Source: Methanosarcina horonobensis HB-1 = JCM 15518
GTDB lineage: Archaea > Halobacteriota > Methanosarcinia > Methanosarcinales > Methanosarcinaceae
Direction of reading: 5' to 3'
Length of the DNA stretch: 64,000 nucleotides
Assembly (NCBI RefSeq): GCF_000970285.1
Contig: NZ_CP009516.1
Span: forward strand, 1,715,036 to 1,779,035
The notes under the pieces were generated by a model. That model was given only the letters and a program-made list of their open reading frames with translations. It did not search any database and had not been told where the DNA came from. Numbering within the stretch: position 1 is the stretch's first letter; every line of letters begins with the position of its first letter. A program made the translations under genes and the position numbers. Shown here one piece after another: positions 22,634 to 64,000 of this stretch.

Positions 22634-23485
22634 TCAAACCAACTCCTTCGGCTGCTTGTGCTCAGGCAAAACCGGGAGAGACATGGTATTGATCAGAATA
22701 GGGCTTTCAATCTCTTTTGCTCTTTCAATAACAAGTTCCTTTCCTTTCTGTGTGAGGGCAAAAAGAGGGATCGCAGCTGCTACCTGCACAAGAGGCTTTG
22801 CAAGTTCTCGGATATGTTTTGAGGCACAGCTGATTACAATATCCGAGTTATCCAAAAGCCCCTGAGCTTCTTCCCGACTGACGCCCGTAACATGTACCGC
22901 AATAACGAACAGGTCAAGCCCGAGTTCGGATTCGATTTTCCTTACTCTTTTTACGGTTTTTGCATCTGCAACCGTAACTGCGATCTTTTTATAGCCGAGT
23001 TCAGCAGCTTTTTTTACCCCGCCTGCCGGGTCAATAGCTGCGGTTGAGGGGTCGAGTACGGTTCCTCCGCGTTCTTCAATTCCTTTGATTACTGCATCGA
23101 TTGGCTCGGTTTCAACGAGACCGGACATCCTGCCTCCGATTCCCTGGACCAGTGAGGGATTGCCTGATATTACGGTACCTGCGCCGTCGCAGGCGGTCAC
23201 GGTTGTTTCAAGGAATCCGCTATTAAGGCCGCTCATCATTATTTCTGAGGCGCCGAAAGCAACGACGGTTGTTTCAAATTCCAGCTTGCGGTTTTCAGTA
23301 AACATTCCCAGCTCGCTGATCCGGGACTCCATGTTTTTCCTGATTTCCTCATGAGTCATCTTCTCTACTCCTCGCAGTTTGACAAATAGAGGGCACCATT
23401 CTACTTCAGGAGTTCCGACTTCTATTACTTTTCCATCTTTTACAACTACTCTCGCTTTTCCCATTAATTCCATAATGTGAGGCAT
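22634..23485 (-). CDS. DUF2099 / methanogenesis marker protein 8
   Basis: A 283-residue protein of the DUF2099 family, known as methanogenesis marker 8 because of its near-restriction to methanogens. Visible features are the N-terminal MELMGKARVVVKDGKVIEVG, EWCPLFVKLRG, a Gly-rich central stretch (GAGTVISGNPSLVQGIGGRM) and SCASKHIRELAKPLVQVAAA. Biochemical role is unsettled. A close paralogue begins at the far right of the window beyond the provirus. Alternative starts at Met5 and Met8. Confidence 0.85.
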   Translation of the reverse strand: MPHIMELMGKARVVVKDGKVIEVGTPEVEWCPLFVKLRGVEKMTHEEIRKNMESRISELGMFTENRKLEFETTVVAFGASEIMMSGLNSGFLETTVTACDGAGTVISGNPSLVQGIGGRMSGLVETEPIDAVIKGIEERGGTVLDPSTAAIDPAGGVKKAAELGYKKIAVTVADAKTVKRVRKIESELGLDLFVIAVHVTGVSREEAQGLLDNSDIVISCASKHIRELAKPLVQVAAAIPLFALTQKGKELVIERAKEIESPILINTMSLPVLPEHKQPKELV

Positions 23486-24027: not shown

Positions 24028-24230
24028 TCTACAATCTCTTATTGGTGGGTTATTGATATATACTTGATCGGCACGGGAATGTAGTTAATGCATTCCACTG
24101 TATTACTATAGCCCTTAATTGTCCACTGTATTACTACAGCCCTTAGTTGTCGAATATTTACCAGATAGCATGAAAATAATGTAAAATTAAAATGAAATGA
24201 TGCAAAAATGAAGATCGAGAATACACGAAT

Positions 24231-25103: not shown

Positions 25104-25460
25104 GATTCCATATCTTCCTGCTTTATTGTTAAAGTTTTTGTTATAACCTTTAAAGTTATTCTGCTGTAAAAATTCTCTAAGAACAAAGCAACAATTCAGT
25201 GTCTTCTGGCAATGATAAAGAGTTTATATTGTTATTTGAGACGTTCAAATTAACAAAAAAGTAGTCTATGAAAGAGAGCTTGCGAAAGAGAATTCATGAA
25301 AAAAGAGTCCGTAAAAAATAGATCCACAAAACTGATTTACGAAAAAAAAGGAAAGGTTTTCTGAATTCAGATTACAAATTTTAAGACTAAGGCAGGATTT
25401 CTTTTTACTTTCAGTCCACTCAGCTATGCTATTTCTATCAAATCTATTGGAGATATATGT
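25104..25460. other. provirus left junction region
   Basis: The promoter region of the winged-helix gene and, from about 25362, the start of proviral sequence. It holds the candidate attL core at 25362-25379 and TATA-like sequence before the integrase ATG. No tRNA gene is present at this junction. Confidence 0.4.
25362..25379 (+). other. candidate attL core
   Basis: TGAATTCAGATTACAAAT matches TGAATTTAGATTACGAAT at 62309-62326 in direct orientation with 16 of 18 bases identical. On the minus strand both encode Phe-Val-Ile-stop, the end of the 390-residue host gene at the right. The geometry (integrase just inside, intact host gene on the other side) fits site-specific insertion into a gene 3' end. 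Confidence 0.35.
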
Positions 25461-26594
25461 ATGGGTATTCACGATCATAAAATATACAAGAGCCTGCCAG
25501 CAGCTGAAGAACGAATCCGGACAGCGGAATATTCTGAAACGAATAGAATAGCCATTCTCGATTTCGAGAACTATCTTTTCGCAAACGGTATAGGAGCGTT
25601 GCGGATCCTTTCTTGTATCTCAACCCTTCACCGCTTCGCTGGATCCGCAAAGAAGGATTTTGCCCAGATGAACCGGTTAGATGTCCAGGGGATCGTAGCG
25701 GAGATTGAGCGGTCAGGGAAGGCAGACTCCACGAAACTGCAATACAAAGCGATTCTGAAACAGTTTTTCCGATGGCTGCAAGGAGAAAATCATGCAGCTG
25801 CTTGGATCAAAACAGGCATGAAATTGAAATCGAAGAAGTTGCCAGAGAACCTGCTCACAGAGGATGAAGTTGGGCGGATGATCAAGGCTGCAAAAAACCC
25901 ACGGGACAAAGCTCTGATCTCACTATTATACGACTCCGGAGCTAGGATAGGAGAACTCGGAGACCTCAAAATCAGGAATGTCATCTTCGATCAACATGGT
26001 GCAACTCTTGAGATCAAAGGTAAGACTGGGCCGAGGCGGCCGAGAATAATGTTTTCGATGTCATATATCTCGACCTGGATTGACAACCACCCCAACAGGC
26101 AGAACAGGGACGATTTTCTTTTTGTGAACATCACAGGGAAAAACACCGGGAAGCAGATGGGACATGATGGAATCCTGAAGGTAGTCACGAAAACGGCTGA
26201 AAGAGCAGGCATTGACAAGAGGGTATACAATCATCTCTTCCGGCATTCTCGTGCAACCGAGCTGGCAAATCATCTCACAGAAGCTCAGATGGACTCTTAC
26301 CTCGGGTGGGTTCCTGGATCGAACATGCCTTCTGTCTATGTCCACTTATCCGGAAGAGATACAGACGAAGCAATCCTCCGTATGTATGGGAAATCAACAA
26401 AAGAAGAAATGCTTCCTGAACTCATGAGCAAGGCCTGCCCCAGATGCGAAAAAGAAAACGGCCCCACCTCCAAATTCTGCACCAGATGCGGACTGCCTCT
26501 TGACATGAAAACAATGCAGGAGATACAGGCATACGAAGAGGATTTCAGGCATGCGTATGAGATTATGAGAAAAATGAAAGAAGAAGGGATTTAA
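25461..26594 (+). CDS. tyrosine recombinase, viral integrase
   Basis: A 377-residue integrase. It has an N-terminal SAM-like core-binding domain (about 35-130) and a catalytic domain with Arg in SGARIGELGDLKI, His-x-x-Arg in HLFRHSRATEL and the nucleophile Tyr in PSVYVHLSGRD. The C-terminus carries a zinc ribbon (CPRCEKENG...CTRCGLP), common in archaeal integrases of this type. It would integrate and excise the provirus between the att sites. It is the only early gene at the left end and overlaps 4 nt tail-to-tail with the last tail gene. Confidence 0.93.
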   Translation: MGIHDHKIYKSLPAAEERIRTAEYSETNRIAILDFENYLFANGIGALRILSCISTLHRFAGSAKKDFAQMNRLDVQGIVAEIERSGKADSTKLQYKAILKQFFRWLQGENHAAAWIKTGMKLKSKKLPENLLTEDEVGRMIKAAKNPRDKALISLLYDSGARIGELGDLKIRNVIFDQHGATLEIKGKTGPRRPRIMFSMSYISTWIDNHPNRQNRDDFLFVNITGKNTGKQMGHDGILKVVTKTAERAGIDKRVYNHLFRHSRATELANHLTEAQMDSYLGWVPGSNMPSVYVHLSGRDTDEAILRMYGKSTKEEMLPELMSKACPRCEKENGPTSKFCTRCGLPLDMKTMQEIQAYEEDFRHAYEIMRKMKEEGI

Positions 26595-27971: not shown

Positions 27972-29801
27972 TCATGAGTATGTGTATTTTCCAGAAACCC
28001 CTCTTGCTGTAGCCTCACCTATCTGTTTCTGCAGGTTCCGCATGCTTGATTCGTTTCTGACAACCACGTTCATGTTGATTTCCACATCTCTCGGTTCCTG
28101 CTTGAGAGCCGCAACAAACTCGTCCTTGATCCCCGTGATCAGACTTGTGAGGTTAAAACCTATGTTTGTCGGACTTTGTATCGCTGTGATCCGAGTGGAT
28201 GTGACCTCCGTGTCAGCAGCAGGGATGGTGGATGTCTGAGAAACCTTGGCTGCGGGAATTCCCATAGACCCATAGACTCCCGAAAGGCCTGCAGCTTTGG
28301 CAGCATCCACACCCATGATCTGAGCGTATGATCTTCTTCCGCCCGGGATGATCTCTGCACCTTTTGCAGCTCCGGTCATCTCGTCAACAGCGGCCCGGTG
28401 ATCCGCTACGACTTGATCCATTTCTTTTTTGACTTCTTCCCTGGCATCCTTAGCAGAGTCCTTGACAGGTTTGAACATGTCCATTGAGACTACTTCAGCA
28501 TCAATGCCTGCTTTCTGCAGAAGAGGGACAAGGGAGTTGTATCTAGTGATGATCTCATCGAGTGCCCAGACGAGTTTGTCATGGATCCAGGAGTAGACGG
28601 CAGAGATTGACTCAAGGGCAAGCCTGAACGACAAGACAAATTTGCCTCCAATATCGTGCGAATCTATGTACTCAAAAACGTAGGCAGCCCCCCTCCTGAG
28701 CAGGACAAATGCTCCGTACAGGTCCTGTAGAAGGAGTTTCAACCCATCAAGATCTCCAGTGATCTCAGTTCCTAGGGCATTCTTAACGTCCTTCAATATC
28801 CCAAAAACTGCTTTATTGATGCGCTTTTCCGCATCTGTCCAGGGTTGCAGGATCTCCTTCCCTTTATCCATCCAACCCAGGAAAGTTTCAACCCCTTGTC
28901 CTGCCTTTTCGAAGTCGATGTTCTGAACAGTATCAAGAACTCCCCCGAGGCCTGTCTTCATGCGATCAAAAAGACTTCCTTCCCGGAACTGTTTCGTAGC
29001 TTCATCAAAACCCATGAAGGCAAGTTGCCCTTTATACAGACTGTCCCAAATATTTGACCAAATACCTTTCGCAGATTTTGAAAGGGCTTCCATGCCTCCC
29101 ATATATTTCTCATCAAAGATACCGGTAATCGCTGTAGTAATTGCCTGCCTGTTGTTTCGGTCAATGACTTTGATAGCCTGTTGCATCTGAGAGTCAGTAT
29201 AGGTCAGAGCTGTCAGCCCGATCTGCTCCTGTGTTGCACCAAGCATCTCGTAATTGTTTTTCGTAATTTCGATAGCCTTTATCCCGAACTCTTTAAGCCG
29301 CTCAAATTCCCCCGTTTGTGCATCCGCGAGAGCTTCGACAGCTGCGTCAAGGGGTTTTGTCAGGGCAGAAGCAGCATTGCCCAGGGAGCGTATAACGGTC
29401 TCAAACTCAATCCCGTAAGCCTTCAGCTTCGTCATTGAATCTATCAAGCCTGGGAGCTCAAAGGGCGTTCGTTGTGCGAAGTCGAGAAGCCATTCCATCT
29501 TCTGCCCCGCAGTCTCCAGATCACCGTACAGGTTAGTAAGGGTGATCATGTAGGCTTCCATATCGGCTGAACTCTTGACAGTAGCACGAGCCATCAAGGC
29601 AATTGCTGCAGTGATTGTAACAGCTACAAGTTGCCAGGCCTTCGCGACAAGAGCTGCTCCCTTCTCCATGGCCTTCGATGACTTGTCCATTTTCTTATCT
29701 ACGTCACCGATTGACTTCTCGACCTTCTCAAAGCCCGCGATGGCCTTGTCAACTTTTGCCTCGAGTTCGTATATCAGTTTTTCAATTGTTTCATCTGTCA
29801 T
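27972..29801 (-). CDS. tail tape measure protein
   Basis: 609 residues. An N-terminal coiled coil (LIYELEAKVDKAIAGFEKVE) is followed by a hydrophobic segment (about 50-70) and the conserved tape-measure region TLTNLYGDLETAGQKMEWLL, DFAQRTPFELPGLIDSMTKL, FGIKAIEI. The long helical remainder sets tail length and is ejected with DNA in tailed viruses. The size is modest and would predict a fairly short tail of roughly 90 nm by the usual length relation. Confidence 0.88.
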   Translation of the reverse strand: MTDETIEKLIYELEAKVDKAIAGFEKVEKSIGDVDKKMDKSSKAMEKGAALVAKAWQLVAVTITAAIALMARATVKSSADMEAYMITLTNLYGDLETAGQKMEWLLDFAQRTPFELPGLIDSMTKLKAYGIEFETVIRSLGNAASALTKPLDAAVEALADAQTGEFERLKEFGIKAIEITKNNYEMLGATQEQIGLTALTYTDSQMQQAIKVIDRNNRQAITTAITGIFDEKYMGGMEALSKSAKGIWSNIWDSLYKGQLAFMGFDEATKQFREGSLFDRMKTGLGGVLDTVQNIDFEKAGQGVETFLGWMDKGKEILQPWTDAEKRINKAVFGILKDVKNALGTEITGDLDGLKLLLQDLYGAFVLLRRGAAYVFEYIDSHDIGGKFVLSFRLALESISAVYSWIHDKLVWALDEIITRYNSLVPLLQKAGIDAEVVSMDMFKPVKDSAKDAREEVKKEMDQVVADHRAAVDEMTGAAKGAEIIPGGRRSYAQIMGVDAAKAAGLSGVYGSMGIPAAKVSQTSTIPAADTEVTSTRITAIQSPTNIGFNLTSLITGIKDEFVAALKQEPRDVEINMNVVVRNESSMRNLQKQIGEATARGVSGKYTYS

Positions 29802-30167: not shown

Positions 30168-31292
30168 TCACCACCTCCTCGAAACGTACCATTCTGCCTG
30201 ACGGTCTACGAGACAGTTTTTTGCTTCTTGCTCCGGATCAGAAGCTTCGTAGAAAATCCATTTTTTTCCGGGCCCTGCGATCACTCCTTCCGAGATGCTA
30301 AGGGCCTGATTACTTGCTACATACAGGCCCGTGCCCAGGACCAGGAAGTTATCAGCTCCGGTGCTCGAATCTGAAGGGGACAGTTCCGAGCAGGTCAAAC
30401 TATAGACAGTCATCTGAGGGGGTTTTCCAGCTTCAAGGATTACCCAATCAAGGATTGTCGGATACCCATTCAAACAAAAACATACTTCGACCCGGTCTGG
30501 CCTTAAAGTCCTCAAGAAAACCCCTATAAGTGAATAGCCCACTGAGAAATTATCGATTAAGGTGTACTCTGCTCCGGACCAGTAGGATACTGAAATCGTG
30601 CCCTGATCCTTGTCTATTGCTACCGAGTACAGGCCATTCTTGACCGTGAGGACCTCTCCGACCAGGTGAGCTGCTGAGTGGATCCGGAGGGACCCATCAA
30701 AGACCTGGACCTCTCCAACTCCGTCCATACTCCCTGCAGGCATGAAGTTTGCAAAAGATCCGGATGTCTGGGTCAGAGTCCCGTACTCAGAAGATACTTC
30801 CCGGGTGGATCCAGAAGTTGCATAGCTACTACCTGCAGGTAGAGTGGTCCAGCTCTGACAGTCTTCCAGGGTAATTCCGAAATCATTCTGAATGACTACA
30901 GGAAGAGTTTCAACCCTGCCCCAGTACTCAGAGAGAGGGAGGAAAAGACCGTCTACAGTGAATTCCCGGAAGGCCTTCGTACGTTCCCTGGGATCCACAT
31001 TGCAGGATTCCACCGAGACGAAACCGTACTTCCCCTGCACATTGTGGACATAGTTCCAGACTGACTTCCTGCGGGCCAGAGCTGCAAGGTCCTCAGCGTA
31101 CTGGTCAGCTGTCTTTGTTCCGGAAAACTCTTTGAAGAGAGATCCGGACATTTCCAGAGTAACAGGATCTGGCTCAAACTCAGCAATGGTATGAAGGTTT
31201 GTTCCAAGGGGGGAGATTATTTCAGTAGACCTCTTGACTGCAGCTGCATTAAAGACTGCCACACATGGCAGGTCGATATCTCCAATTTTCAC
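30168..31292 (-). CDS. tail-associated protein, unassigned
   Basis: 374 residues, beta-rich. It starts MKIGDIDLPCVAVFNAAAVK and has a central concanavalin-like stretch (GLYSVAIDKDQGTISVSYWS ... VFLRTLRPDRVEVCFCLNGY). The start overlaps the end of the tail chaperone frame by ATGA. A position between chaperones and tape measure suggests a tail hub or distal tail component. The N-terminus could correspond to a Dit-like fold, but I cannot show that. Confidence 0.5.
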   Translation of the reverse strand: MKIGDIDLPCVAVFNAAAVKRSTEIISPLGTNLHTIAEFEPDPVTLEMSGSLFKEFSGTKTADQYAEDLAALARRKSVWNYVHNVQGKYGFVSVESCNVDPRERTKAFREFTVDGLFLPLSEYWGRVETLPVVIQNDFGITLEDCQSWTTLPAGSSYATSGSTREVSSEYGTLTQTSGSFANFMPAGSMDGVGEVQVFDGSLRIHSAAHLVGEVLTVKNGLYSVAIDKDQGTISVSYWSGAEYTLIDNFSVGYSLIGVFLRTLRPDRVEVCFCLNGYPTILDWVILEAGKPPQMTVYSLTCSELSPSDSSTGADNFLVLGTGLYVASNQALSISEGVIAGPGKKWIFYEASDPEQEAKNCLVDRQAEWYVSRRW

Positions 31293-34638: not shown

Positions 34639-34873
34639 AGCTTCTAACCAGTCCAGTTCCCCGGTCTTTGATGGCCTGAGGTTCAAACCGTGAGCTTGCC
34701 GAGAGCAATTTCATATGCTCTTCCTGGCAGGCTTTGCAACAATAAGGAAGCTCAAATCTTTCGTATCTCAAAAAAAAGTCTAAAAAGAACTGTCGTTTCT
34801 GTTTTTTAGTAATCCAGAATAACTCATTACAGTTAGGATTTGTGCAGCTGACTTGGACAAGATCTTCAGTCAT
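34637..34873 (-). CDS. small zinc-binding protein
   Basis: 78 residues with CTNPNC and CCKAC pairs that could coordinate zinc and a polar linker between. It overlaps the upstream gene by 8 nt. No function assigned. Confidence 0.6.
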   Translation of the reverse strand: MTEDLVQVSCTNPNCNELFWITKKQKRQFFLDFFLRYERFELPYCCKACQEEHMKLLSASSRFEPQAIKDRGTGLVRS

Positions 34874-35099
34874 CTAAGACTCCATTAAGAAATGCGTTTT
34901 GTGTGACTTCAGAAATTGAAAAACTAACCGTGAAAATTCCTGAGATGTTTGATTGTTCCGGGGGAGAACACTTTGTGCTTGCTGTCTCTATAAGGAGGGA
35001 GAATCGCTTCTGTTGACAGCGTGAACGTTCGGGGCAGTCCGTGGTGCAGATATCTCCTAGTTTGTTGTAGCCGAGATAGCACAGCCGCTTCATTTTCAA
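34866..35099 (-). CDS. small Cys-rich protein
   Basis: 77 residues. It begins MKMKRLCYLGYNKLGDICTT, followed by CPERSRC; the first 35 residues contain the Cys residues and the rest is unremarkable. The ATG follows CAAGGATTGAAA. A strong TATA tract (TATATATAA, minus strand, near 35161-35172) lies 65 nt upstream, so it may open a transcription unit. Confidence 0.5.
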   Translation of the reverse strand: MKMKRLCYLGYNKLGDICTTDCPERSRCQQKRFSLLIETASTKCSPPEQSNISGIFTVSFSISEVTQNAFLNGVLDD

Positions 35100-35186
35100 T
35101 CCTTGTTTTAGTGGACGCCACTATAGAACGCCACACTTGTCATATCAAAGTTAGAACTTTTTTTATATATATCTATTCCTGTTTTT

Positions 35187-39917: not shown

Positions 39918-40850
39918 TTATGAGGTCGGGACGCAAGCTATGCAGTAGCGCCAGTTACCATAGCCGATGTTGAAACGAGCATCAACGCCCATCTTGATCA
40001 CGCCGGAATTGAACCAGTCATCAGAGACAGAGCCAGTTCCACCCAGGGTGATGAAACGTGGAGCTCTCCTTGTCTGGTAGATCAGGGGTTTTGTGGGTCT
40101 GTTACAACAGGCAAAATACCAGCTGTCAACGTCGGTGATGAATGGATTGACGATTACTGTGTACTTGCCCCTGTGAACGTTGATTGTAGGTGCGCTGTCA
40201 GTTCCGGATGCGACGTACCTGGCGATCTCCGTAGCTCCGATGAGTTCCAGAGAGGTTTTTTCGAGCTCTGGAGGTACGATAAGAGTGTCACCCACAATTC
40301 CCATAGGCTTGCCCTTGTCATCCTTGTAGCGGAGCATTGTTGCTCTGACGGTCGCCAGGTTGTCAGATGTCAGTTCCAGGGTAAGGTCATTTGACTGAGT
40401 TCCGGATGCACCTTCAGAGTGGTCAGTGTCGAAGAAGTACTGCCCATCGTAGCACTCAGCAGAAACCCCGCCAACCAGGACTTCCATTGCTCTTTCGCCT
40501 GGGAACCTGCGAGCCTCGTTTGCAAGATCCCTGATTGCCAGCATGATCTGTCCGGTCTGGTCGTCCTCAATTGCTTCCTCTGTGATGGCAATAGAAGCTT
40601 CATATTTCTTGTTGAGGATTTCGAAACCGTATTCCTTGATGAGTTTCGGCAGACGCTCGTCAATCCACTCTCTCATTTTGGGAGTAGCTCCGAGCATGGC
40701 ATAGACTTCCTTGCTCTTGGTAGATGGCACTTCTGTGCAGAGACTCTTCCAAGTTTCGTCAATCTGTCCTTCCCGGAATTCCTTGTTGAAGGTCGTCCTT
40801 GCAGCGTTGACGATGTGGTACGGGAAATCAGATGGTGTATTGACGCCCAT
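39918..40850 (-). CDS. major capsid protein, Mu gpT-like
   Basis: 310 residues, HK97-fold capsid protein of the Mu gpT type. Marks are the N-terminal helix FPYHIVNAARTTFNKEFREG, YGFEILNKKYEASIAITEEA, the family-typical YDGQYFFDTDH and the C-terminal domain (YTVIVNPFITDVDSWYFACC). Its order after protease/scaffold and DUF2190 genes is the Mu arrangement. The start overlaps the previous stop. Confidence 0.85.
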   Translation of the reverse strand: MGVNTPSDFPYHIVNAARTTFNKEFREGQIDETWKSLCTEVPSTKSKEVYAMLGATPKMREWIDERLPKLIKEYGFEILNKKYEASIAITEEAIEDDQTGQIMLAIRDLANEARRFPGERAMEVLVGGVSAECYDGQYFFDTDHSEGASGTQSNDLTLELTSDNLATVRATMLRYKDDKGKPMGIVGDTLIVPPELEKTSLELIGATEIARYVASGTDSAPTINVHRGKYTVIVNPFITDVDSWYFACCNRPTKPLIYQTRRAPRFITLGGTGSVSDDWFNSGVIKMGVDARFNIGYGNWRYCIACVPTS

Positions 40851-48128: not shown

Positions 48129-48380
48129 TTACTTCTTCGGAGGAACACCCGTTCCACCTTGAGGAGGATTGTCCAGGTCAAGATTCCCATACGGTTGATA
48201 CCCTTGTCCTGGATAATGAGGAGGAATATTTTCCCAATACCTGCAGTACGTCTTCTTCCCTTCTTGATGCTTTGCAGGATGTACCTTCCACTTGCTACAA
48301 TACCCGTCACTGTTCATTCTTCTGCATGTGCTGCATCTTCTCCAGAAGAGAAGCCAGTATTTGATTTGTCTGAGAATCAT
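48129..48380 (-). CDS. small Cys-rich protein between terminase and portal
   Basis: 83 residues. It begins MILRQIKYWLLFWRRCSTCR and contains CSTC and further Cys/His pairs (YCSKWKVHPAKH, KTYC), suggesting a zinc-binding fold, and ends in a Gly/Pro-rich tail. The ATG overlaps the terminase stop (ATGA). Confidence 0.6.
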   Translation of the reverse strand: MILRQIKYWLLFWRRCSTCRRMNSDGYCSKWKVHPAKHQEGKKTYCRYWENIPPHYPGQGYQPYGNLDLDNPPQGGTGVPPKK

Positions 48381-49747
48381 ACTCTAAATCCTCCACCTGC
48401 TACTCCTACTCCGTCCCAGGCCATAGCAGCCTGCCTTTTTGGAGCTTTGACCAGCTGCAGGTATCCACCTGAGAAACAGTCTACCTGGTCATCGTGAACA
48501 CCTTCCTGAGGGAATAACTCTAACTCAACAATGAAGGCTGTATTCCAGTGACCTTTCACGATATGGACCAGTCCGTTTTTGCTGGCAGAACTTACGGACC
48601 CGGCTCGAACGACCTTTGAACCTAATTGCTTTGTTTCCGGGATCCCGACAAAATCCCGTCCTTTGAAGACAGTCTTTGCAAAAGTGAGTGTTACGTCCTT
48701 TCCTGAGGATCCTGGCTCCTGACCCAGACGCTGCTTGATGTGTAGAGGGTCAAGTGCTATAGTTGCCTCTATTGCTTTGTCTCGATCTCCAGAGTTCTTC
48801 CTGCAGCGGAATACATCTATGACATAATATTCTCCGTTTTTCTCACCCATCAATAGCCCTACGGTCCAGTCGGGATCCGGATTTGCCTTGCTCGGTTCAG
48901 TGGAGGCCATATCCCAATAACGGACCAACTGGCAACCTTGGGGAGCTGCATCCACGAAGTCATACCATTCCCTCTTGAACATCTCACCCTTTGCTTGAAT
49001 GTCCCAGTTTCCATCCCTGAGTTGAGCTTGAGTGACCGGATCCAGTTCGTCAAGGGACTCGAGGTACTCCTCCTGATCGAGATATGGGTTATCTTGGAGC
49101 TTTGCAGGAACAAAGAATCTGCCTCTTTTAGAAAGATCTTCAGGAGGATTAATAATAGTGCCCTGTTCGTCTTTGTAAGTGATGAATCGATTCTTCACCC
49201 ATTCGTGACCTGCGCCTCCTGGATTGCTGGCACTCCTGCACCTTATAGGGACGTCTGAACCTTCTAACCTGCGAAGTCTGGAAAAGAGATACCTGTACTG
49301 AGTTTCTGTAAACTGTGTAAGTTCATCAAACCCTACATATTGATACTCAGAACCCTGGTATCTGAACTTATCTTTTTCAGCTTCAAGGTATCCGAATGTA
49401 AGTGTAGCTCCAGAAGGAAACCCCCACGTCTTTGTTTTCTCTTTCCATTCAGCATCTGTCCCTCTAAGCCATTCGTCTGCACGGTCCATCAGAGCGCCTG
49501 GAAGGGAAAGGTCCGTGAATGTTTTTCTAAAAAGAATAGCTGCATAATCAGGTTCTGTTACATACTGCAGACCTGCCATAAGAAGAGCGTCAGACTTCCC
49601 TCCTCCTGCAGCTCCCCCATACATTCCTTCTTTCCGGAGATCCACAAGGAACTCTGCCTGCTTGATCGTAGGGTCATGAGGGATGTAAGGGTTGTCCAGG
49701 ACTGTGGCTGCAAACTCAGCTTTCGTCTGCCTCTTCGAAGATCGCAT
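48377..49747 (-). CDS. terL: terminase large subunit
   Basis: 456 residues. The ATPase domain has Walker A MYGGAAGGGKSDALL and Walker B-like YQYVGFDELTQF. The RNase-H-like nuclease domain has acidic residues in LVRYWDMASTE, YYVIDVFRCR and GVHDDQVDCF. It packages DNA into the head and cuts it. It overlaps the small subunit by 31 nt. Confidence 0.95.
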   Translation of the reverse strand: MRSSKRQTKAEFAATVLDNPYIPHDPTIKQAEFLVDLRKEGMYGGAAGGGKSDALLMAGLQYVTEPDYAAILFRKTFTDLSLPGALMDRADEWLRGTDAEWKEKTKTWGFPSGATLTFGYLEAEKDKFRYQGSEYQYVGFDELTQFTETQYRYLFSRLRRLEGSDVPIRCRSASNPGGAGHEWVKNRFITYKDEQGTIINPPEDLSKRGRFFVPAKLQDNPYLDQEEYLESLDELDPVTQAQLRDGNWDIQAKGEMFKREWYDFVDAAPQGCQLVRYWDMASTEPSKANPDPDWTVGLLMGEKNGEYYVIDVFRCRKNSGDRDKAIEATIALDPLHIKQRLGQEPGSSGKDVTLTFAKTVFKGRDFVGIPETKQLGSKVVRAGSVSSASKNGLVHIVKGHWNTAFIVELELFPQEGVHDDQVDCFSGGYLQLVKAPKRQAAMAWDGVGVAGGGFRV

Positions 49748-50256: not shown

Positions 50257-50407
50257 AGTCCTTTGGGAGATGTCCTTCTGCATTGCATACGATAATGAAT
50301 GTTGCAATTTGCTCTCTTGATTTGCTCAAAAAAGTTGCTGGTCGTCTTTTAAGTTTTAATCTGTTAGCTCGCTTTACGCAGTTAGACTGATTTTTTTGAG
50401 CTGTCAT
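50255..50407 (-). CDS. small basic protein after the primase gene
   Basis: 50 residues from ATG 50407 (GAGGAGAT upstream), overlapping the helicase-primase stop as ATGA. Basic and possibly helical (KRANRLKLKRRPATFLSKSR), a candidate nucleic-acid binder. A longer frame to 50440 is less likely. Confidence 0.5.
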   Translation of the reverse strand: MTAQKNQSNCVKRANRLKLKRRPATFLSKSREQIATFIIVCNAEGHLPKD

Positions 50408-53364
50408 ACTATAATCTCCTCTACTCTTCCCCTGTTGCATGCACGAAAGGAGGCATCATCTCTGTATAATGGACAGCCTAAACAGTTGACAAAATTACTT
50501 GCCTCTGCCCGAAGCCTATCACATCTAACATTTTTCGATTCTTTTCGGATAATCGAAAGAACTCCTTTCATGGATTCTTCATAAGAGAAGTCGTTCTGAC
50601 CCCTATACAGGTCCACAAGCTTCTCAAGGTCCCGAACACCAGAGTTGTAATATTCCCGACAAACAGCAATCCTCATGAAATGACCCTGTGTGCCTGTCAA
50701 CTGCATCTTAAGAGCGCTTTCAATACACGGTCTTACCTTGGTCCTGTAATTAGCATGTTCAGTTGTCACAGCTTTAGAAACAGGTTTCTTGGTCTTTACT
50801 TCAGGTTTAGGCAGAGGATACTTGCTGATATCCAAAACTTCAAGCTCAATATTCGAAAATGAGGTTACGAACTCACCATTAACCTGGATTTTTGACTCTG
50901 TTTTATGGATCTGATGAGTAGCAAGAGGAAGCTTGACAAGGTTACCATACCCATCCTTACCTATTTTCTCTTGCTTCGGGAAGACTTCACAGTCAATCCC
51001 GACTTCTTTTCTAATATCCGTTCCAAACTGTTTTGCAATCTTGCCGTCTACAAGTTCTACGAATATCCAGATATGATAAGAGTGAGGACTGCCGGACTTC
51101 TCCAAGAGATAAGGTACGTCAATGGTTTTCAGGAAATTACACAGTTTAGTGCAGTTTGTTTCTGCAAGTTCATTCCTTCGTTTTACGTCTTCCTCGGTTT
51201 CAACTGTGTTTTTAGGAGCATGAGAATCAATATCAAAACAGATCCACTTCACCTTGTTATCAGGATTGAACTGGTATGCTCCTATTGTCATTTTTCCTTC
51301 TAAGTGCTGCTTTATCAGGAAATCATTTACAGGGATTTTGGTTTTGAGGTAACCCCCTTTTGGATTCTGTTGAGCAAAGACATCAGTGCGGTTAAGGACG
51401 AGAGATAACAGATCTTCGGAACTTCTTAAACAAACTCCTTTTTTTGTGCAAAATCTCCCTATATTATTAATAAATAGGGAGATTTTCGAGTTTTCGGGAA
51501 GTTTGTTTAAGAAGTTGTCTATAGGGAGATTTTGTTGATTTTCGGGAATCTGTTTAGACAGTTTATGCTTAATTGCTTCTTTAATCATTTCTTCAAAGTT
51601 TTTGCACTTGATAATCTCAGGGGTTGTAATCAAGCCTCTCTCACATGAAACTTTTATTTTCTTTTTTTGGCGTTCTTTGTAAGGCTCGATTACAACCCTC
51701 CTTTTGTATCCCCAAGTAGTAACGGCATTGCATTCTTCAACCGTACAACCAAGTGCAAAGACCAAGCTAGGAACTGCACCATTAGGATCTTTGACCCTAC
51801 TCCATGCCTGCCATGTGTCACAGTGCACAGACTCATGCAGCATCCGTTTAGACTCTTCAGTATTCGAAGTAATTACATCAAAAGCATTAGATGGTTTATT
51901 GGCGACACCGACAGCGATCATTACCCTGGCTTTCGCGGATACGCCCATCATCTCAGGAGCTTTATAGTAGGTGACATCGTGTTCATGTCCTGCTTCTTTT
52001 AGGGCAGCTTCTAATTTGATTGCTTCTTTGGTATTTAGGGCAATTATAATGCAATCGTCGTTGCCGTACATTTCTAAAATGTTTATTGTTTTCGAAACAA
52101 TTTCGTCTCGTTTATTATACCTTGATTCTCGCCCAATAGCGTAATATTTCTTCGAATCTGCAAGAATTAACATCTTTGAATTTGTGTTCATAGGGTCTCC
52201 CCCTATACCGAATGAAATGTTTTTTGGCGGGTCTCCGCCCATAAACATTTTTCCATAGTTATAACTGCAAACGGTAGCCGATGTCAGGAAAATCCGCTTG
52301 TCTTCCTTTTGCATGCTCATCACGAATGACGCTATAGACTGCGTATATGCCTCGTTGACAGCTGCAATACTCACCCTGATGATTCCTTGGTCCCGAATTG
52401 CACTTATAGAAATTGTTTTGCTCTGTATGATCAAAAGCATTGAAAATAATTCTAAGATGTTACGCATTTCAAGACCGAAGTCTTCACGATGCTTTGTCAA
52501 TTCTATAAGTTCGCTGTACGCTCCGACGGTGACTTTGTACTCGTTTTCTCCTTCCCTGATGCCAGGGGAAGGATTAGGGAGCGAAATGTTGAGGTGATGC
52601 TTCCAGTAATTCTCGTCCTGTGCTCCCCCTAGCACCTCATGAACAGAGTTTTCTATCTGTGGGACCGTGAGCAGTTTTCCAAACTCGTTCAACACCCTAC
52701 GCAGATACTTGTAGTCGCTCGGCACTCGGTGATACTTCTTCACGTCTATTAGTTTTCCAATGCCGTCTTCGTACACGTCTATTTTTACATAGTCTCCGAA
52801 CTGGATTTCGTGTACCTCGTCAAGGATTACATTTTTAGAGAATGACAGCTCGTTGAGTATTTTTTCAGCCATTGTGTTTGGTGCAGATCCTGCTGCCATC
52901 ATGAGAGCTGCGAGTTTTTTGTATGTGATGACAGTTCCGTGGGCATCTGGCCTCCGAAGTACTGCCGTAACTTCGCAAGAATCAAAGTTTTGGCATTCTT
53001 CACATGATCCTGCAAGAGGGAGGATAGGAAGTTTTTTTAGGTCAGGATAATCTTTGCACAGTTCCTGGTTGTATAAACACTCATGATTTGCTGGAATATG
53101 GATAATGTGTGCAGACCCTAAATCGGAATATTTTTTAGAATCTGCGACCACCGTCTTATCTGCAATCCAGTTTGTTGGAACCATACAAAGGAACTTTTCA
53201 TCTCTGTTCATTGACTCGGCTATTAACGCGGTTGTTGCCCCCGCCCTCGTCGTTTTGTGGATGAGGTATTTTCCGGACTTGAAAGCCTCATAGATCTTGT
53301 AGGCTATCTCTATCCTCTTGTCTTGATTGTCCCGTGGATTTGGGGCTAGAGTAACCTGCGCCAT
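50404..53364 (-). CDS. helicase-primase with PriL-like Fe-S tail
   Basis: 986 residues. N-terminal SF2-type helicase: Walker A-like HKTTRAGATTALIAES, Walker B NVILDEVHEIQ, and an inserted Cys cluster near 115-145 (CLYNQELC...CEECQNFDSC) that may hold Fe-S. Residues about 640-860 match the TOTE-type AEP primase: LEGKMTIGAYQF, the catalytic WICFDIDSH, SGSPHSYHIWIFVE and GYGNLVKLPLATHQ. The last 120 residues (RPCIESALKMQLTGTQGHFM ... RDLEKLVDLYRGQND ... CLGCPLY) resemble the Fe-S C-terminal domain of archaeal PriL. One protein could thus unwind, prime and regulate priming at the viral origin. Confidence 0.8.
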   Translation of the reverse strand: MAQVTLAPNPRDNQDKRIEIAYKIYEAFKSGKYLIHKTTRAGATTALIAESMNRDEKFLCMVPTNWIADKTVVADSKKYSDLGSAHIIHIPANHECLYNQELCKDYPDLKKLPILPLAGSCEECQNFDSCEVTAVLRRPDAHGTVITYKKLAALMMAAGSAPNTMAEKILNELSFSKNVILDEVHEIQFGDYVKIDVYEDGIGKLIDVKKYHRVPSDYKYLRRVLNEFGKLLTVPQIENSVHEVLGGAQDENYWKHHLNISLPNPSPGIREGENEYKVTVGAYSELIELTKHREDFGLEMRNILELFSMLLIIQSKTISISAIRDQGIIRVSIAAVNEAYTQSIASFVMSMQKEDKRIFLTSATVCSYNYGKMFMGGDPPKNISFGIGGDPMNTNSKMLILADSKKYYAIGRESRYNKRDEIVSKTINILEMYGNDDCIIIALNTKEAIKLEAALKEAGHEHDVTYYKAPEMMGVSAKARVMIAVGVANKPSNAFDVITSNTEESKRMLHESVHCDTWQAWSRVKDPNGAVPSLVFALGCTVEECNAVTTWGYKRRVVIEPYKERQKKKIKVSCERGLITTPEIIKCKNFEEMIKEAIKHKLSKQIPENQQNLPIDNFLNKLPENSKISLFINNIGRFCTKKGVCLRSSEDLLSLVLNRTDVFAQQNPKGGYLKTKIPVNDFLIKQHLEGKMTIGAYQFNPDNKVKWICFDIDSHAPKNTVETEEDVKRRNELAETNCTKLCNFLKTIDVPYLLEKSGSPHSYHIWIFVELVDGKIAKQFGTDIRKEVGIDCEVFPKQEKIGKDGYGNLVKLPLATHQIHKTESKIQVNGEFVTSFSNIELEVLDISKYPLPKPEVKTKKPVSKAVTTEHANYRTKVRPCIESALKMQLTGTQGHFMRIAVCREYYNSGVRDLEKLVDLYRGQNDFSYEESMKGVLSIIRKESKNVRCDRLRAEASNFVNCLGCPLYRDDASFRACNRGRVEEIIV
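51450..51531. repeat. inverted and direct repeat inside the primase gene
   Basis: Arms AAAATCTCCCTAT and ATAGGGAGATTTT (51450-51462 and 51474-51486) with an 11-nt loop. A second ATAGGGAGATTTT starts at 51521, followed by a similar TTTTCGGGAA segment, so about 48 bp is imperfectly duplicated. It encodes the twice-repeated LPENS/IPENQ linker between helicase and primase. Confidence 0.7.
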
Positions 53365-57773: not shown

Positions 57774-58237
57774 TTCTTACCACCAACCTTGATCTGCACC
57801 GAAGCCTCAACCACTGAGACCTTCCTGCATTCCAGGATTTCAGGATGCAAGATAGCAAAGCCCTGAAGTTTCTTATCATCCCATGAAGCTCTCTCGTATG
57901 CTTTCCGGAAGGCAGCACTGCCATAAGAACACTTGAAAGATTCTCCATGCTTCAGGATTTCAGCCATAATCTTCTTCTCAACCTCTTCGATCTCGGGAGC
58001 ATACTCTGCTTCCTTCTCAGCCCTTTCCTTCTGAAGAACGGTTATGAGGTGGTCAATTTCCTTGCACTCGACAATCAGAGCATACTTCAGGACGTCGAGC
58101 TTGTAGAACAGGCTTTCAAGGTTAGCAGGGTCTTCAATGTCAACGAAGATCGGGTCAGCAGGTGCTTTGACTGCTGGGTATTCTCCTATCTCGGCAGCTG
58201 CGAGAGCGTCTACCCTTCTTGTGTCAAACTCGCTCAT
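57770..58237 (-). CDS. coiled-coil early protein (Gam-like?)
   Basis: 155 residues. A central coiled coil (IDHLITVLQKERAEKEAEYA ... EEVEKKIMAEILKHGESF) is followed by KCSYGSAAFRKAYERASWDD, a strand-rich end seen in some viral proteins annotated as Gam-like DNA-end binders. Resemblance is loose; the coupling in the recombination gene cluster supports it. Confidence 0.45.
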   Translation of the reverse strand: MSEFDTRRVDALAAAEIGEYPAVKAPADPIFVDIEDPANLESLFYKLDVLKYALIVECKEIDHLITVLQKERAEKEAEYAPEIEEVEKKIMAEILKHGESFKCSYGSAAFRKAYERASWDDKKLQGFAILHPEILECRKVSVVEASVQIKVGGKK

Positions 58238-58545
58238 GCTTTCACCCTCTCATCATAGACACATTCAACAAGTCCACCAGGGCGACATATTGAAAAAGAA
58301 GTAATACCTGCTTTGATACAGTGATATGTCAGCCTGCTTGGCAGCAGCAATGGCATGTAGCCTACGACCAACAGGTCCACATCCTTCTTTCCCTTGACTT
58401 TTTCCTGGATGCAGGACCATACCTTTTCTATCTCAATGTCGTTGTAGAACCTGTGCGGCTGCTTGTCCATCTTGTCGGCATAGACGTGGCCTACGTCTGC
58501 CGGAAGCTCCTTCAGATCTATTCTGATGTCTGTCACAATATTCAC
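58234..58545 (-). CDS. hypothetical early protein
   Basis: 103 residues. The C-terminal half (DVDLLVVGYMPLLLPSRLTY ... TSFSICRPGGLVECVYDE) is an alpha-beta pattern with a loose resemblance in layout to Csx3-like ring nucleases. No catalytic residue can be assigned. It overlaps the next gene by 4 nt. Confidence 0.5.
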   Translation of the reverse strand: MNIVTDIRIDLKELPADVGHVYADKMDKQPHRFYNDIEIEKVWSCIQEKVKGKKDVDLLVVGYMPLLLPSRLTYHCIKAGITSFSICRPGGLVECVYDERVKA

Positions 58546-58598
58546 CTTTGAAAGTTTTAGATGTCGGGGGGTGACATCCGATGCTTCAGCCCGGAATC

Positions 58599-58630
58599 AT
58601 TTCAATCCACACACCCGCGAAGGGTGCGAC
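58599..58630 (-). CRISPR. solitary type I-C-like CRISPR repeat 1
   Basis: A single 32-nt unit on the minus strand, GTCGCACCCTTCGCGG followed by GTGTGTGGATTGAAAT. The inverted CACCC/GGGTG stem and GGATTGAAAT end are those of type I-C repeats. No second copy follows at spacer distance and no cas gene is present. It lies in the 300-nt gap between two early genes, transcribed with them. Confidence 0.75.
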
Positions 58631-58639
58631 GCGAGTTGA

Positions 58640-58853
58640 CCCCGGCAGGAACCGGGGCACGACTTCTACGAGTTTTTTGACTTTTGTAGGTTGGCTTAAT
58701 TTATTTGGTCTGTTCGAGTTTTTTTTCTCATCCAGATTTTTTGATTTGTGTTAGTTCGTCCGGGTTGTCCCGGAAGCCGTCAGCAGGAATCGAACCTACT
58801 CTCCAGCCGTGAGAAGACCTTATGATGGCAAGGAGGAGAGCTCCGAAGAGCTC
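58640..58853 (-). ncRNA. structured non-coding region before CRISPR repeat 1
   Basis: In transcription order there is a 6-bp GAGCTC stem with UUCG loop (58838-58853), a tRNA-like acceptor/T-arm fold lacking a D arm (58775-58829), a TCCGGG/CCCGGA stem with a 4-nt loop (58759-58774) and a CCCCGG/CCGGGG stem (58640-58657). No open frame fits. The tRNA-like part has GCCATCA pairing with TGACGGC (6 of 7) and T stem GTAGG/CCTGC around TTCGATT. It may be processed by tRNA enzymes. Transcription is inferred from the operon. Confidence 0.45.
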
Positions 58854-59223: not shown

Positions 59224-59311
59224 AGCCGTCGCCAAGGTTTGAACTTGGAGTGGGGGTTATTTTTGGGGAGATCTGACACAGGAAAAAAAGAGTTCAAGCC
59301 CAATCGACGGC
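59224..59311 (-). ncRNA. tRNA-like element in a 180-nt gap
   Basis: A perfect 7-bp acceptor (GCCGTCG / CGACGGC) and a T arm (CCAAG-TTCAAAC-CTTGG) enclose 56 nt, total 88 nt, the length of a class II tRNA. The D arm and anticodon arm are not convincing. An inverted copy of the same motif (TTGGGCTTGAACT) forms the other side, so an imperfect stem-loop is an alternative reading. Confidence 0.4.
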
Positions 59312-61667: not shown

Positions 61668-61790
61668 GGGGTATTATTTAATGCTCTTATATATAAAGAA
61701 ATTACTGATCTATTCAATACGAACGTTTCGTTTACAATAAAACAACTTTTACTTATTCTTTATATATAATAAAATTAAATTTTAACTTTA

Positions 61791-61822
61791 GTCACACCCT
61801 TCGCGGGTATGTGGATTGAAAT
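61791..61822 (+). CRISPR. solitary type I-C-like CRISPR repeat 2
   Basis: GTCACACCCTTCGCGG followed by GTATGTGGATTGAAAT, 30 of 32 bases identical to repeat 1 and on the opposite strand. It lies in a 250-nt gap after an AT-rich leader-like stretch. No partner repeat occurs within spacer distance. A crRNA-like guide would start at 61823. Confidence 0.75.
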
Positions 61823-61914
61823 ATATATTATAAAATTAGATTTTTACATGGCGTATTTTTCGCCATCTCTCCCCATAAAAGCAAAGAGGTGAAGCCCTCT
61901 GAGGTTGTGAAATT

Positions 61915-62235
61915 ATGTATATAAAAACGAAATGCCCTTATTGTGAGAATGCAGTTTACCACAATGTCCATATCCGGAACGTCGAGACTCAAGATCTAAC
62001 CATTAAAACCATTGAAGTTACAGACTCTATTACCGAGGAGGGCATGGTACGACATGTACTGCATACTATTCAGAAATATCTCAGTGACGGGATGGAAGTC
62101 CGGGAACTGTGCAAAATACTGACAAAGTGTTATGGGATCGCGTCAGATTACTGTTGTGATCTCGTACAGAGAATAAAAATAGAACTGGACATGTATAGTC
62201 CAGACAAGAGACATCTGTATTTTGTCCAACCATAA
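61915..62235 (+). CDS. small zinc-binding protein at the right end of the provirus
   Basis: 106 residues. N-terminal CPYCENAVYHNVHI looks like the start of a zinc site; further Cys near residues 68-82 (CKILTKCYGIASDYCC). Role unknown. It is the last gene before the candidate attR, so it is probably viral, though a host origin cannot be excluded. Confidence 0.5.
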   Translation: MYIKTKCPYCENAVYHNVHIRNVETQDLTIKTIEVTDSITEEGMVRHVLHTIQKYLSDGMEVRELCKILTKCYGIASDYCCDLVQRIKIELDMYSPDKRHLYFVQP

Positions 62236-62308
62236 TCAAAGCGGACCGAGAAATATATATTTTGTAAACCTATTTTAATTGTTGTATAATTAATCCTGCC
62301 TTAGTTTT

Positions 62309-62326
62309 TGAATTTAGATTACGAAT
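62309..62326 (+). other. candidate attR core
   Basis: TGAATTTAGATTACGAAT, direct partner of 25362-25379. It overlaps the last codons and stop of the 390-residue gene, so an insertion here would keep that gene intact. Confidence 0.35.
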
Positions 62327-63486
62327 CCTGAAGTATCTTCCACCATGCCCAGTCCACTTCCGGTCTTCTGTAACGTTACTACACTATCTCCGGTATCGAC
62401 CTGAAAATCGACGACTTCTACAAGGTTTTCGATATATCTGAAGTTGAAGTTATTTGTAAAACTGAAAGATTCCTTGCAGTAGCTCTTCGTGACCATGAAC
62501 ACTTTACCTTCTTCAGTGGTAACGACCCACCTTTTGTCCCCTTTTTCGGATGGGTACTCATATACTTTTACCTTCTTAAAACGGTGTATCTTCCTGGATT
62601 CAGCATCATAGAACTCCATGGAGTTGTATATATTGTATTCTACTCCTCCAATCTCTAAATTCGGTATGTAATAGGTAAGAATTGATCCGTTCCTGAAAAC
62701 TATTCTCGACCATTTCCAGGGTATGAAAGGTCCTACAACAATTACTTTCTGAGCATAGCATTTTCCTGAGAAATCTTTTTCAAACAATGCACCCCTGAAA
62801 TCGAAATACAGGTTGGCAAGCCTGTACCCGAATAAGCCCCTGAACTGCTCGGATATCTCTGAGTTATAATTGCTATCTGAGGGCTCTTTTATATCCAGAC
62901 AGCAGATTTTTTCGCCGCTGTTTGAAACATCAAGTACATACTTAGGGAAGGAACCATGGAACTCTGCCTTCATGTCTTTACTTGAGCAGGTAACCCTTTC
63001 ATTTTTCACTTCAATAACTCCTAGATCATCAGTGATACCCCTCCGTATCTCATCATACGCCCAGGAAACGCAATATCCCTCCGTTTTATCGTCTATTATC
63101 CTGCTGTTCTCTACATATTTGCCATTGACTTCTATATCCCCAGCGCTCCTGCCGAATGTAAGAAAAAACTGCCGCCTTGACCCGTCATCGGCTGTAAATT
63201 TCATAAACCAGTATTCCTTTCCAAAAATAGGTAGCTCTTCAAAAGAAAACAGCAGGTCGTCAATACTTCTTTTAATTTCTTTTTTTACCAGCAGCCTTTC
63301 TATTTTGTCCTTACTTTCCTTTATCTTCTTTATTGACTCGATAAATGCCTTCTTTTCAATTTCAGGCAGGTTTCTGATATAATCATTTCTTTCTTTTATG
63401 AAGCGTAAAAGTCTGTCTTTTTCGGTGATAATTATCTCTTCAAGAGTTGTGGATCTAAGCTCTCTGTCACCTGATATGGCAGTCAT
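62314..63486 (-). CDS. host hypothetical protein at the integration site
   Basis: 390 residues, cytoplasmic, no signal peptide. An N-terminal coiled coil (about 15-75) precedes a beta-rich body (FGKEYWFMKFTADDGSRRQF ... GYCVSWAYDEIRRGITDD ... IPNLEIGGVEYNIYNSMEFY) reminiscent in pattern of AttH/CrtC-type lipocalin folds, which I cannot confirm. Its 3' end holds the candidate attR core, identifying it as the likely viral target gene. Confidence 0.6.
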   Translation of the reverse strand: MTAISGDRELRSTTLEEIIITEKDRLLRFIKERNDYIRNLPEIEKKAFIESIKKIKESKDKIERLLVKKEIKRSIDDLLFSFEELPIFGKEYWFMKFTADDGSRRQFFLTFGRSAGDIEVNGKYVENSRIIDDKTEGYCVSWAYDEIRRGITDDLGVIEVKNERVTCSSKDMKAEFHGSFPKYVLDVSNSGEKICCLDIKEPSDSNYNSEISEQFRGLFGYRLANLYFDFRGALFEKDFSGKCYAQKVIVVGPFIPWKWSRIVFRNGSILTYYIPNLEIGGVEYNIYNSMEFYDAESRKIHRFKKVKVYEYPSEKGDKRWVVTTEEGKVFMVTKSYCKESFSFTNNFNFRYIENLVEVVDFQVDTGDSVVTLQKTGSGLGMVEDTSGFVI

Positions 63487-63722
63487 TTCATTCTCCTTTA
63501 ATACTCATGCAAAGTTTTTCAAGAATATAACATTCATAAGTTCTAAAAAATATAATCCTATCGTAGAAAATAAAAAATGTAATTCATCCTGGCAAAATAA
63601 GATCAAAAAGATGACTGAAAAGAGAAAATAAGGAATAAAAGTAAAAACAAGATGGAAAAATGACAAAAGGAAATTGCAAATAAAAGAAGTAATAACGGCT
63701 TTGACGCCGTTTTAATCTGTTT

Positions 63723-64000
63723 TTATTTTAGTTCTCTCGGCTGCTTGTTCTCAGGAAGCACAGGCAGGGCCATGGTATTAATCAGAATAGGGCTTTTGAT
63801 GTCTTTTGCCCTTTCGATAACAAGTTCTTTTCCTTTCTGAGTAAGAGCAAAAAGCGGTACAGCAGTCCCTACCTGAGCGAGAGGCTTTACAAGGTCCCTG
63901 ATGGGCTTTGAAGCGCAGCTGGTTGCTATATCTGAGTTTTCCAGAAGTGCCTGGGCTTCTTCCCTGTCTAAACCTGTAACATGGACTCCAATTACTATTA
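63723..64000 (-). CDS. DUF2099 / methanogenesis marker 8 paralogue, C-terminal part
   Basis: The partial gene runs off the right edge. Its C-terminus (ENKQPRELK) and the preceding sequence closely parallel the intact copy at 22634-23485 (EHKQPKELV). Two marker 8 genes therefore lie a few kilobases apart in the host, with the provirus inserted between them. Confidence 0.85.
   Translation of the reverse strand, partial: IVIGVHVTGLDREEAQALLENSDIATSCASKPIRDLVKPLAQVGTAVPLFALTQKGKELVIERAKDIKSPILINTMALPVLPENKQPRELK

Follow-up and report, generated by a model that had tools for sequence, protein, structure and literature searches.

Provirus structure and boundaries

The window analysed here comprises 64,000 nt of the Methanosarcina horonobensis HB-1 genome. 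A tailed provirus was delimited in it by protein families and by empty sites in relatives (window coordinates throughout):

25361-62327, no strand assigned: tailed provirus, 37 kb
25461-26594: integrase
27972-29801: tape measure
39918-40850: major capsid
48377-49747: terminase (TerL)
50404-53364: primase-helicase

In three relatives (G007, G022 and G023) the site is empty, the homologues of window positions about 24093-24118 and 62311-62312 lying about 300 bp apart. The 3′ end of the host gene at 62314-63486 (TGAATTTAGATTACGAAT) is echoed at 25359-25378 (TGAATTCAGATTACAAAT), and we propose about 25359-25378 and 62308-62327 as the att pair. In G001, the same host gene is interrupted by a different element with an integrase that is 41% identical (L180:8881-10955). 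DUF2099 paralogues flank the insertion on both sides (22634-23485 and about 63721-64000). Four ORFs of exactly 374 aa, at 5815-6939, 13815-14939 and 20028-21152 (+) and at 30168-31292 (−), are probably copies of one insertion-sequence transposase, the last of them inside the provirus.

Relatives of the primase gene were found in G029 and G020, those of the terminase gene in IMG/VR contigs (best L102, 80%). Their carriers are only distantly related to the provirus, have little of the early region in common with it and show no repeat, and an orthologous provirus in which repeat conservation could be followed was not found. Among 1205 spacers from the host's own and related arrays only short chance matches to the provirus were observed.

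Two solitary type I-C repeats in the provirus

The first repeat, copy A, lies within the intergenic region 58546-58851, which has a minus-strand ORF on either side:

58631-58676, minus: GC-rich hairpin just upstream of copy A, −16.9 kcal/mol, z −2.24
58599-58630, minus: copy A, full solitary type I-C repeat of 32 nt with stem-loop and intact 3′ end, assigned by sequence match
58564-58598, minus: 35 nt that follow copy A in the spacer position, target search negative
58234-58545, minus: viral ORF of 103 aa following copy A, not assigned to any known family

Read on the minus strand, 58630-58599 is GTCGCACCCTTCGCGGGTGTGTGGATTGAAAT, a perfect type I-C CRISPR repeat. It matches the array repeats of four Methanosarcina genomes (G002, G025, G027 and G030) at 32/32 positions with 63.9 bits, which excludes a chance origin. 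The predicted fold has −11.2 kcal/mol. In type I-C the crRNA carries an 11-nt 5′ handle, and the expected handle, TGGATTGAAAT, forms the intact 3′ end of both copies A and B.

The initial annotation had described a lone type I-C repeat in an early operon, preceded by a GC-rich structured block. The repeat is indeed perfect and solitary, and the block is a real hairpin, equally stable in only 7 of 200 shuffles. What did not hold is its uniqueness, as the same provirus contains a second copy and a type I-B fragment, both of which had been missed. That copy A belongs to an early operon is suggested by gene order. The strict TATA octamers of the whole provirus, just 17 on both strands with overlapping ones counted apart, include none that could serve as a TATA box of its own for copy A, and its transcription would depend on operon read-through or a weak promoter. 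No Rfam family was found in 57.5-60.5 kb at E up to 1. The minus strand also contains tRNA-like pieces at 59225-59311 and about 58776-58803, with GCCGTCG / CGACGGC arms, a T-arm-like CCAAG-TTCAAAC-CTTGG and, upstream of copy A, GTAGG-TTCGATT-CCTGC; no tRNA was called in them by ARAGORN or Rfam (E up to 1).

It had also been suggested that copy A and the 35 nt downstream of it might act as a mini-array producing a crRNA against rival viruses. Archaeal viruses use mini-arrays in this way (PMC6858448, PMC11656645). Such arrays consist of at least two repeats around a virus-targeting spacer, whereas no second repeat lies within 100 bp of copy A. Furthermore, no convincing protospacer for 58564-58598 was found in phages, plasmids, IMG/VR (exact first 18 nt), the 31 Methanosarcina genomes (first 31 nt, up to three mismatches) or the provirus, and the sequence continues into the viral leader with its own hairpin. 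With neither a nearby second repeat nor a convincing target, this reading fails, and we consider it extremely improbable.

The second repeat, copy B, is placed between divergent genes, with about 500 bp separating it from the right end of the provirus:

61759-61768, plus: TATA box of copy B, two overlapping (TTTATATA at 61759 and TATATATA at 61761)
61761-61786, plus: left copy of a 26-nt AT-rich direct repeat, overlapping the TATA box
61791-61822, plus: copy B, solitary type I-C repeat, handle intact, one stem mismatch (C5-A19), 30/32 to copy A
61822-61847, plus: right copy of this repeat, occupying the spacer position behind copy B, with T5 near its end
61915-62235, plus: 106-aa ORF downstream of copy B, with relatives in 16 of the 31 Methanosarcina genomes, the host's own included

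Copy B (GTCACACCCTTCGCGGGTATGTGGATTGAAAT) is oriented opposite to copy A at a distance of 3.2 kb, and its predicted fold is weaker (−7.3 compared with −11.2 kcal/mol). When the host genome (G000, one contig of 5,018,607 bases) was searched by pattern and by family, exactly two sites with up to three mismatches to the copy A repeat were obtained, namely copy A (0 mismatches) and copy B (2 mismatches). Since both are inside the provirus as bounded by the empty sites and the att pair, they are viral DNA. The general spacing between TATA box and transcription start was used for start predictions and places the start of copy B at 61790-61792, at the first base of the repeat; T5 at 61843-61847, 3′ of the repeat, is a possible terminator. 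The two arms of the direct repeat are identical at 23 of 26 positions (maximum 21 in 1000 dinucleotide-preserving shuffles), and near the left arm TTC is found at 61756-61758 and TTT at 61759-61761. A pure assembly artefact was considered and rejected: the genome consists of a single contig of 5.0 Mb, and sequence differences exist both between copies A and B and between the two arms around copy B.

A partial type I-B repeat and the CRISPR systems of the genus

A third element was found when the host's own type I-B repeats were compared with the window:

35164-35171, minus: TATA box preceding the I-B element, with a start predicted at about 35140
35094-35115, minus: partial type I-B repeat, covering 22 of 37 nt
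34866-35093, minus: 75-aa ORF with its ATG directly after the I-B element (0 nt), no Pfam match

The sequence at 35094-35115 (TCCACTAAAACAAGGATTGAAA), inside the provirus, is the exact 22-nt 3′ end of a repeat variant in the host's own I-B array, and the predicted start lies 25 nt before the match. Taken as a 37-mer, the element agrees with the own repeats at 28/37 and with the G030-type repeat at 29/37 positions, compared with at most 26/37 in 30 shuffles of the provirus. Judged from these sequences, two I-C copies and one I-B piece in a 37-kb provirus are far beyond chance. In 26 viral stretches from IMG/VR contigs (L277-L302), the 3′ half of the I-B repeat (TCCAYTAAAAYAAGGATTGAAA) is single in most cases, which suggests that partial I-B solitary repeats are common in viruses.

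The host genome encodes a type I-B operon (Cas8b, Cas7, Cas5b, Cas3, Cas4, Cas1) with 37-nt repeats and also Cas10-type genes of a type III locus. It has no cas8c and no array of the I-C repeat. Among the 31 Methanosarcina genomes, arrays with a one-base variant of the repeat occur in G022 and G026 in addition to the arrays with the identical repeat in the four genomes named above, and cas8c is present in exactly these six genomes with arrays of the I-C repeat family. The comparison with Methanosarcina arrays that the initial annotation had proposed thus came out in favour of its reading as a solitary repeat and RNA anti-CRISPR, which stands as the best one because type I-C arrays do exist in the genus.

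Four genomes without cas8c (G007, G010, G021 and G023) carry one or two I-C-like repeats outside any evident provirus; these look like remnants of lost arrays. They resemble copies A and B as one or two I-C repeats in genomes lacking cas8c. They differ in that no viral genes were seen adjacent to them (the neighbours are tuf/rpsJ-like genes in G007 and rnhB in G010 and G023) and in that some are pairs with a spacer, while copies A and B are inside a provirus. I-C repeats adjoin rnhB in two Methanosarcina without cas8c (L008:1501-1532 and L005:1438-1532), and in G023 the single I-C repeat directly borders an rnhB gene whose N-terminal part appears to be missing.

Chromosomal remnants of one or two repeats in I-C-negative Methanosarcina raise the question whether the viral copies are non-functional leftovers as well, i.e. 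repeats taken from host arrays by recombination (for instance protospacer crossover followed by repeat-repeat excision) and still undecayed; the protospacer-repeat-protospacer layout of the IMG/VR contig L134 (see below), which resembles copy B, would fit this origin. However, copy A still agrees at all positions and the handle is intact in both copies, no similarity to array leader or spacer sequence captured along with the I-C copies was seen when looked for, and three elements of two subtypes with two well-placed TATA boxes are unlikely as debris. We therefore regard leftovers as very unlikely.

Solitary repeats as putative RNA anti-CRISPRs

Solitary repeat units (SRUs) were identified by SRUFinder as sequences that are at least 90% identical to a known CRISPR repeat over no less than 90% of its length and score at least 41.1 bits, that have no further repeat, whole or partial, within 100 bp and that are intergenic on a virus or plasmid (PMC10651486). 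Copy A exceeds the identity and score values. Copy B does so end to end (30/32, 48.1 bits), the BLAST local alignment covering 28/32, and the I-B element with its 22/37 falls below them. The best identities in the 100-bp flanks are 12-16/32, within the range of the shuffled null, and the I-C copies are intergenic on a provirus. The cognate subtypes exist in hosts, I-C in 6/31 Methanosarcina (not in the present host) and I-B in the present host. SRUs often sit immediately downstream of a promoter (PMC10651486); a TATA box with predicted start is found at copy B and near the I-B element, and none at copy A. One SRU of type I-C, RacrIC1, inhibits type I-C (Camara-Wilpert et al. 2023, PMC10651486). 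The same paper notes SRUs in viruses of archaeal hosts, so that the solitary-repeat kind is already known.

Taken together, we consider it reasonably probable that the provirus encodes solitary repeat units acting as Racr-like RNA anti-CRISPRs. Short viral transcripts would bear a repeat identical to that of the host in the case of I-C copies A and B, or the 3′ half of one in the case of the I-B element, and the repeat-processing protein of the host, Cas5c in type I-C and Cas6 in type I-B, would bind them and cut where the stem allows. The resulting viral RNAs, with a crRNA-like handle and no useful guide, would sequester Cascade subunits in unproductive assemblies during establishment of the virus. 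For the I-C copies the relevant hosts would be those Methanosarcina that have type I-C immunity, and not the present host, which has none, whereas the I-B element would be aimed at the present host's own I-B system. Transcription, processing, Cas binding and inhibition are steps that we infer from sequence.

In support of such decoys are the exact or near-exact match to cognate repeats, the intergenic position of the I-C copies away from neighbouring repeats, TATA boxes for two of the three elements, the absence of the provirus from relatives with empty sites and the recurrence of solitary I-C repeats in IMG/VR contigs, with 74 intact-flank cases in one set and 66 in another. Counting against decoys are the missing TATA box of copy A, the lack of type I-C in the present host, the stem mismatch of copy B, the restriction of the I-B element to 22 of 37 nt and the persistence of lone repeats as chromosomal remnants in Methanosarcina without cas8c. 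Among the IMG/VR loci, L144:6177-6208 is an ideal Racr candidate, since a textbook intrinsic terminator (aagcacctttcacagggtgctttttttat) comes immediately after the solitary I-C repeat. One viral contig, IMGVR_UViG_3300020171_000101, carries a solitary repeat apart from its I-C mini-array of two repeats (L131, L132).

Each of the three elements precedes a small ORF and shares its coding strand, at a distance of 53 nt (A), 92 nt (B) and 0 nt (I-B), an arrangement that would also suit cis-acting leader elements, in which binding or cutting of the viral mRNA leader by Cas5c or Cas6 regulates the small ORF, perhaps a protein anti-CRISPR. AAGGATTGAAA in the I-B element could double as a ribosome-binding site, and Racr and acr genes are often neighbours (PMC10651486). 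The ORFs next to the elements, however, match no known anti-CRISPR family, and in the many Methanosarcina genomes that have a member of the 61915 ORF family no I-C repeat was found beside it. We judge leader elements to be quite unlikely. The decoy reading, that stray viral copies of the hosts' repeat make small RNAs jamming CRISPR immunity, is probably the right one as far as sequence can tell. It would place RNA-based CRISPR inhibition in a tailed methanogen virus, and a single provirus would hold elements directed against two CRISPR subtypes. The literature search yielded no report of such elements in Methanosarcina viruses.

Self-matching solitary repeats in viral contigs

The direct repeat around copy B resembles an arrangement seen in other viral contigs. 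In set 1 of the IMG/VR solitary I-C repeats, an 8-mer taken from the start of the spacer position recurred within 60 nt upstream in 7 of 74 loci (expected 0.41, maximum 3 in 500 permutations), and in set 2, composed of loci outside set 1, in 4 of 66 (expected 0.30, maximum 3 in 1000 permutations). Thus, in about 8% of these repeats the sequence after the repeat matches that just before it, far above chance. TTC or TTT directly precedes the upstream 8-mer copy in 7 of the 11 cases (L134, L143, L185, L192, L225, L226, L238, L333, L348, L352, L367), and TTC is a proven I-C PAM, interference in Xanthomonas requiring about 27 matched nt (PMC8406640). No self-match was seen among I-B-like solitary repeats (0/14).

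At the sequence level there is thus a statistically supported sign of matches, beside a PAM, between some viral solitary repeats and the region upstream of them, and this may be a new observation. In several pairs, for example L192 and L238, the two sequences have diverged while retaining the PAM-proximal part, which speaks against assembly loops there; L134, where both arms are identical in a protospacer-repeat-protospacer layout, could be an assembly artefact of a metagenomic case.

As the self-match is above chance and often behind a TTC PAM, some viral decoys may guide host Cascade to their own promoter. A self-targeting guide repressing its own promoter, by analogy with CreA/CreR, would explain PAM, seed and position; the main alternative is duplication during acquisition. 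Copy B is a probable member of the self-matching group and not a certain one, because its arms are AT-rich, the exact register gives TTT as PAM (TTC being 3 nt off) and the strict 8-mer criterion is missed. In copy A the spacer position matches neither its own upstream region nor the provirus.

It is possible, if doubtful, that a subset of viral solitary I-C repeats, copy B included, are guides that, by a partial match next to a PAM, steer host Cascade to the promoter or leader immediately 5′ of the repeat. If so, the virus would use host immunity as a repressor of its own anti-CRISPR locus, with output rising when free Cascade runs out and falling when Cascade is free, and in the Methanosarcina provirus this would be combined with decoys for two CRISPR subtypes. 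Solitary repeats of this kind would connect RNA anti-CRISPRs with CRISPR-guided gene regulation.

For the provirus itself, a CreR-like self-repression, in which the SRU-derived crRNA partly matches its own promoter and the bound Cascade, without cutting, represses either the SRU itself or the gene that follows it, would be compatible with Racr action and could limit the decoy dose. The 23/26 match of the copy B spacer position to its own promoter, with TTT/TTC near the PAM position, and the 8-mer excess in IMG/VR speak for it. On the other hand, the AT-rich stretches of copy B may be simply two similar TATA promoters, its register and 8-mer shortcomings are those given above, copy A has no such match and the present host has no I-C Cascade. 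On balance such self-repression appears unlikely.

Comparison with known systems

Like CreA/CreR, crRNA-like regulators reviewed in PMC8730458 and PMC12737573, copy B and the self-matching IMG/VR repeats appear to combine a single repeat with a spacer-like sequence partly matching a nearby promoter. Unlike CreA/CreR, they are virus-encoded and outside cas loci, the target would be their own promoter and the regulation is conjectural. The mini-CRISPR arrays of the portogloboviruses SPV1/SPV2 (PMC6858448) are likewise host-type repeats in an archaeal virus without cas genes; the provirus differs from these in that repeat-spacer-repeat units are absent, as are spacers with a viral target.

There is a particular likeness to Racr and especially RacrIC1 (PMC10651486), with a single host-type repeat of type I-C, intergenic in a provirus without cas genes and, for copy B, a predicted promoter just upstream. 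Inhibition by RacrIC1 was shown by experiment, while for the Methanosarcina elements it is predicted, and RacrIC1 is co-transcribed downstream of AcrIC5, while no known acr gene was found in the provirus. A methanogen virus, two I-C copies together with a partial I-B repeat in one element and a lysogen without type I-C further set the present case apart from RacrIC1. The Methanosarcina elements would add to a known class, as decoys are already known from other viruses.
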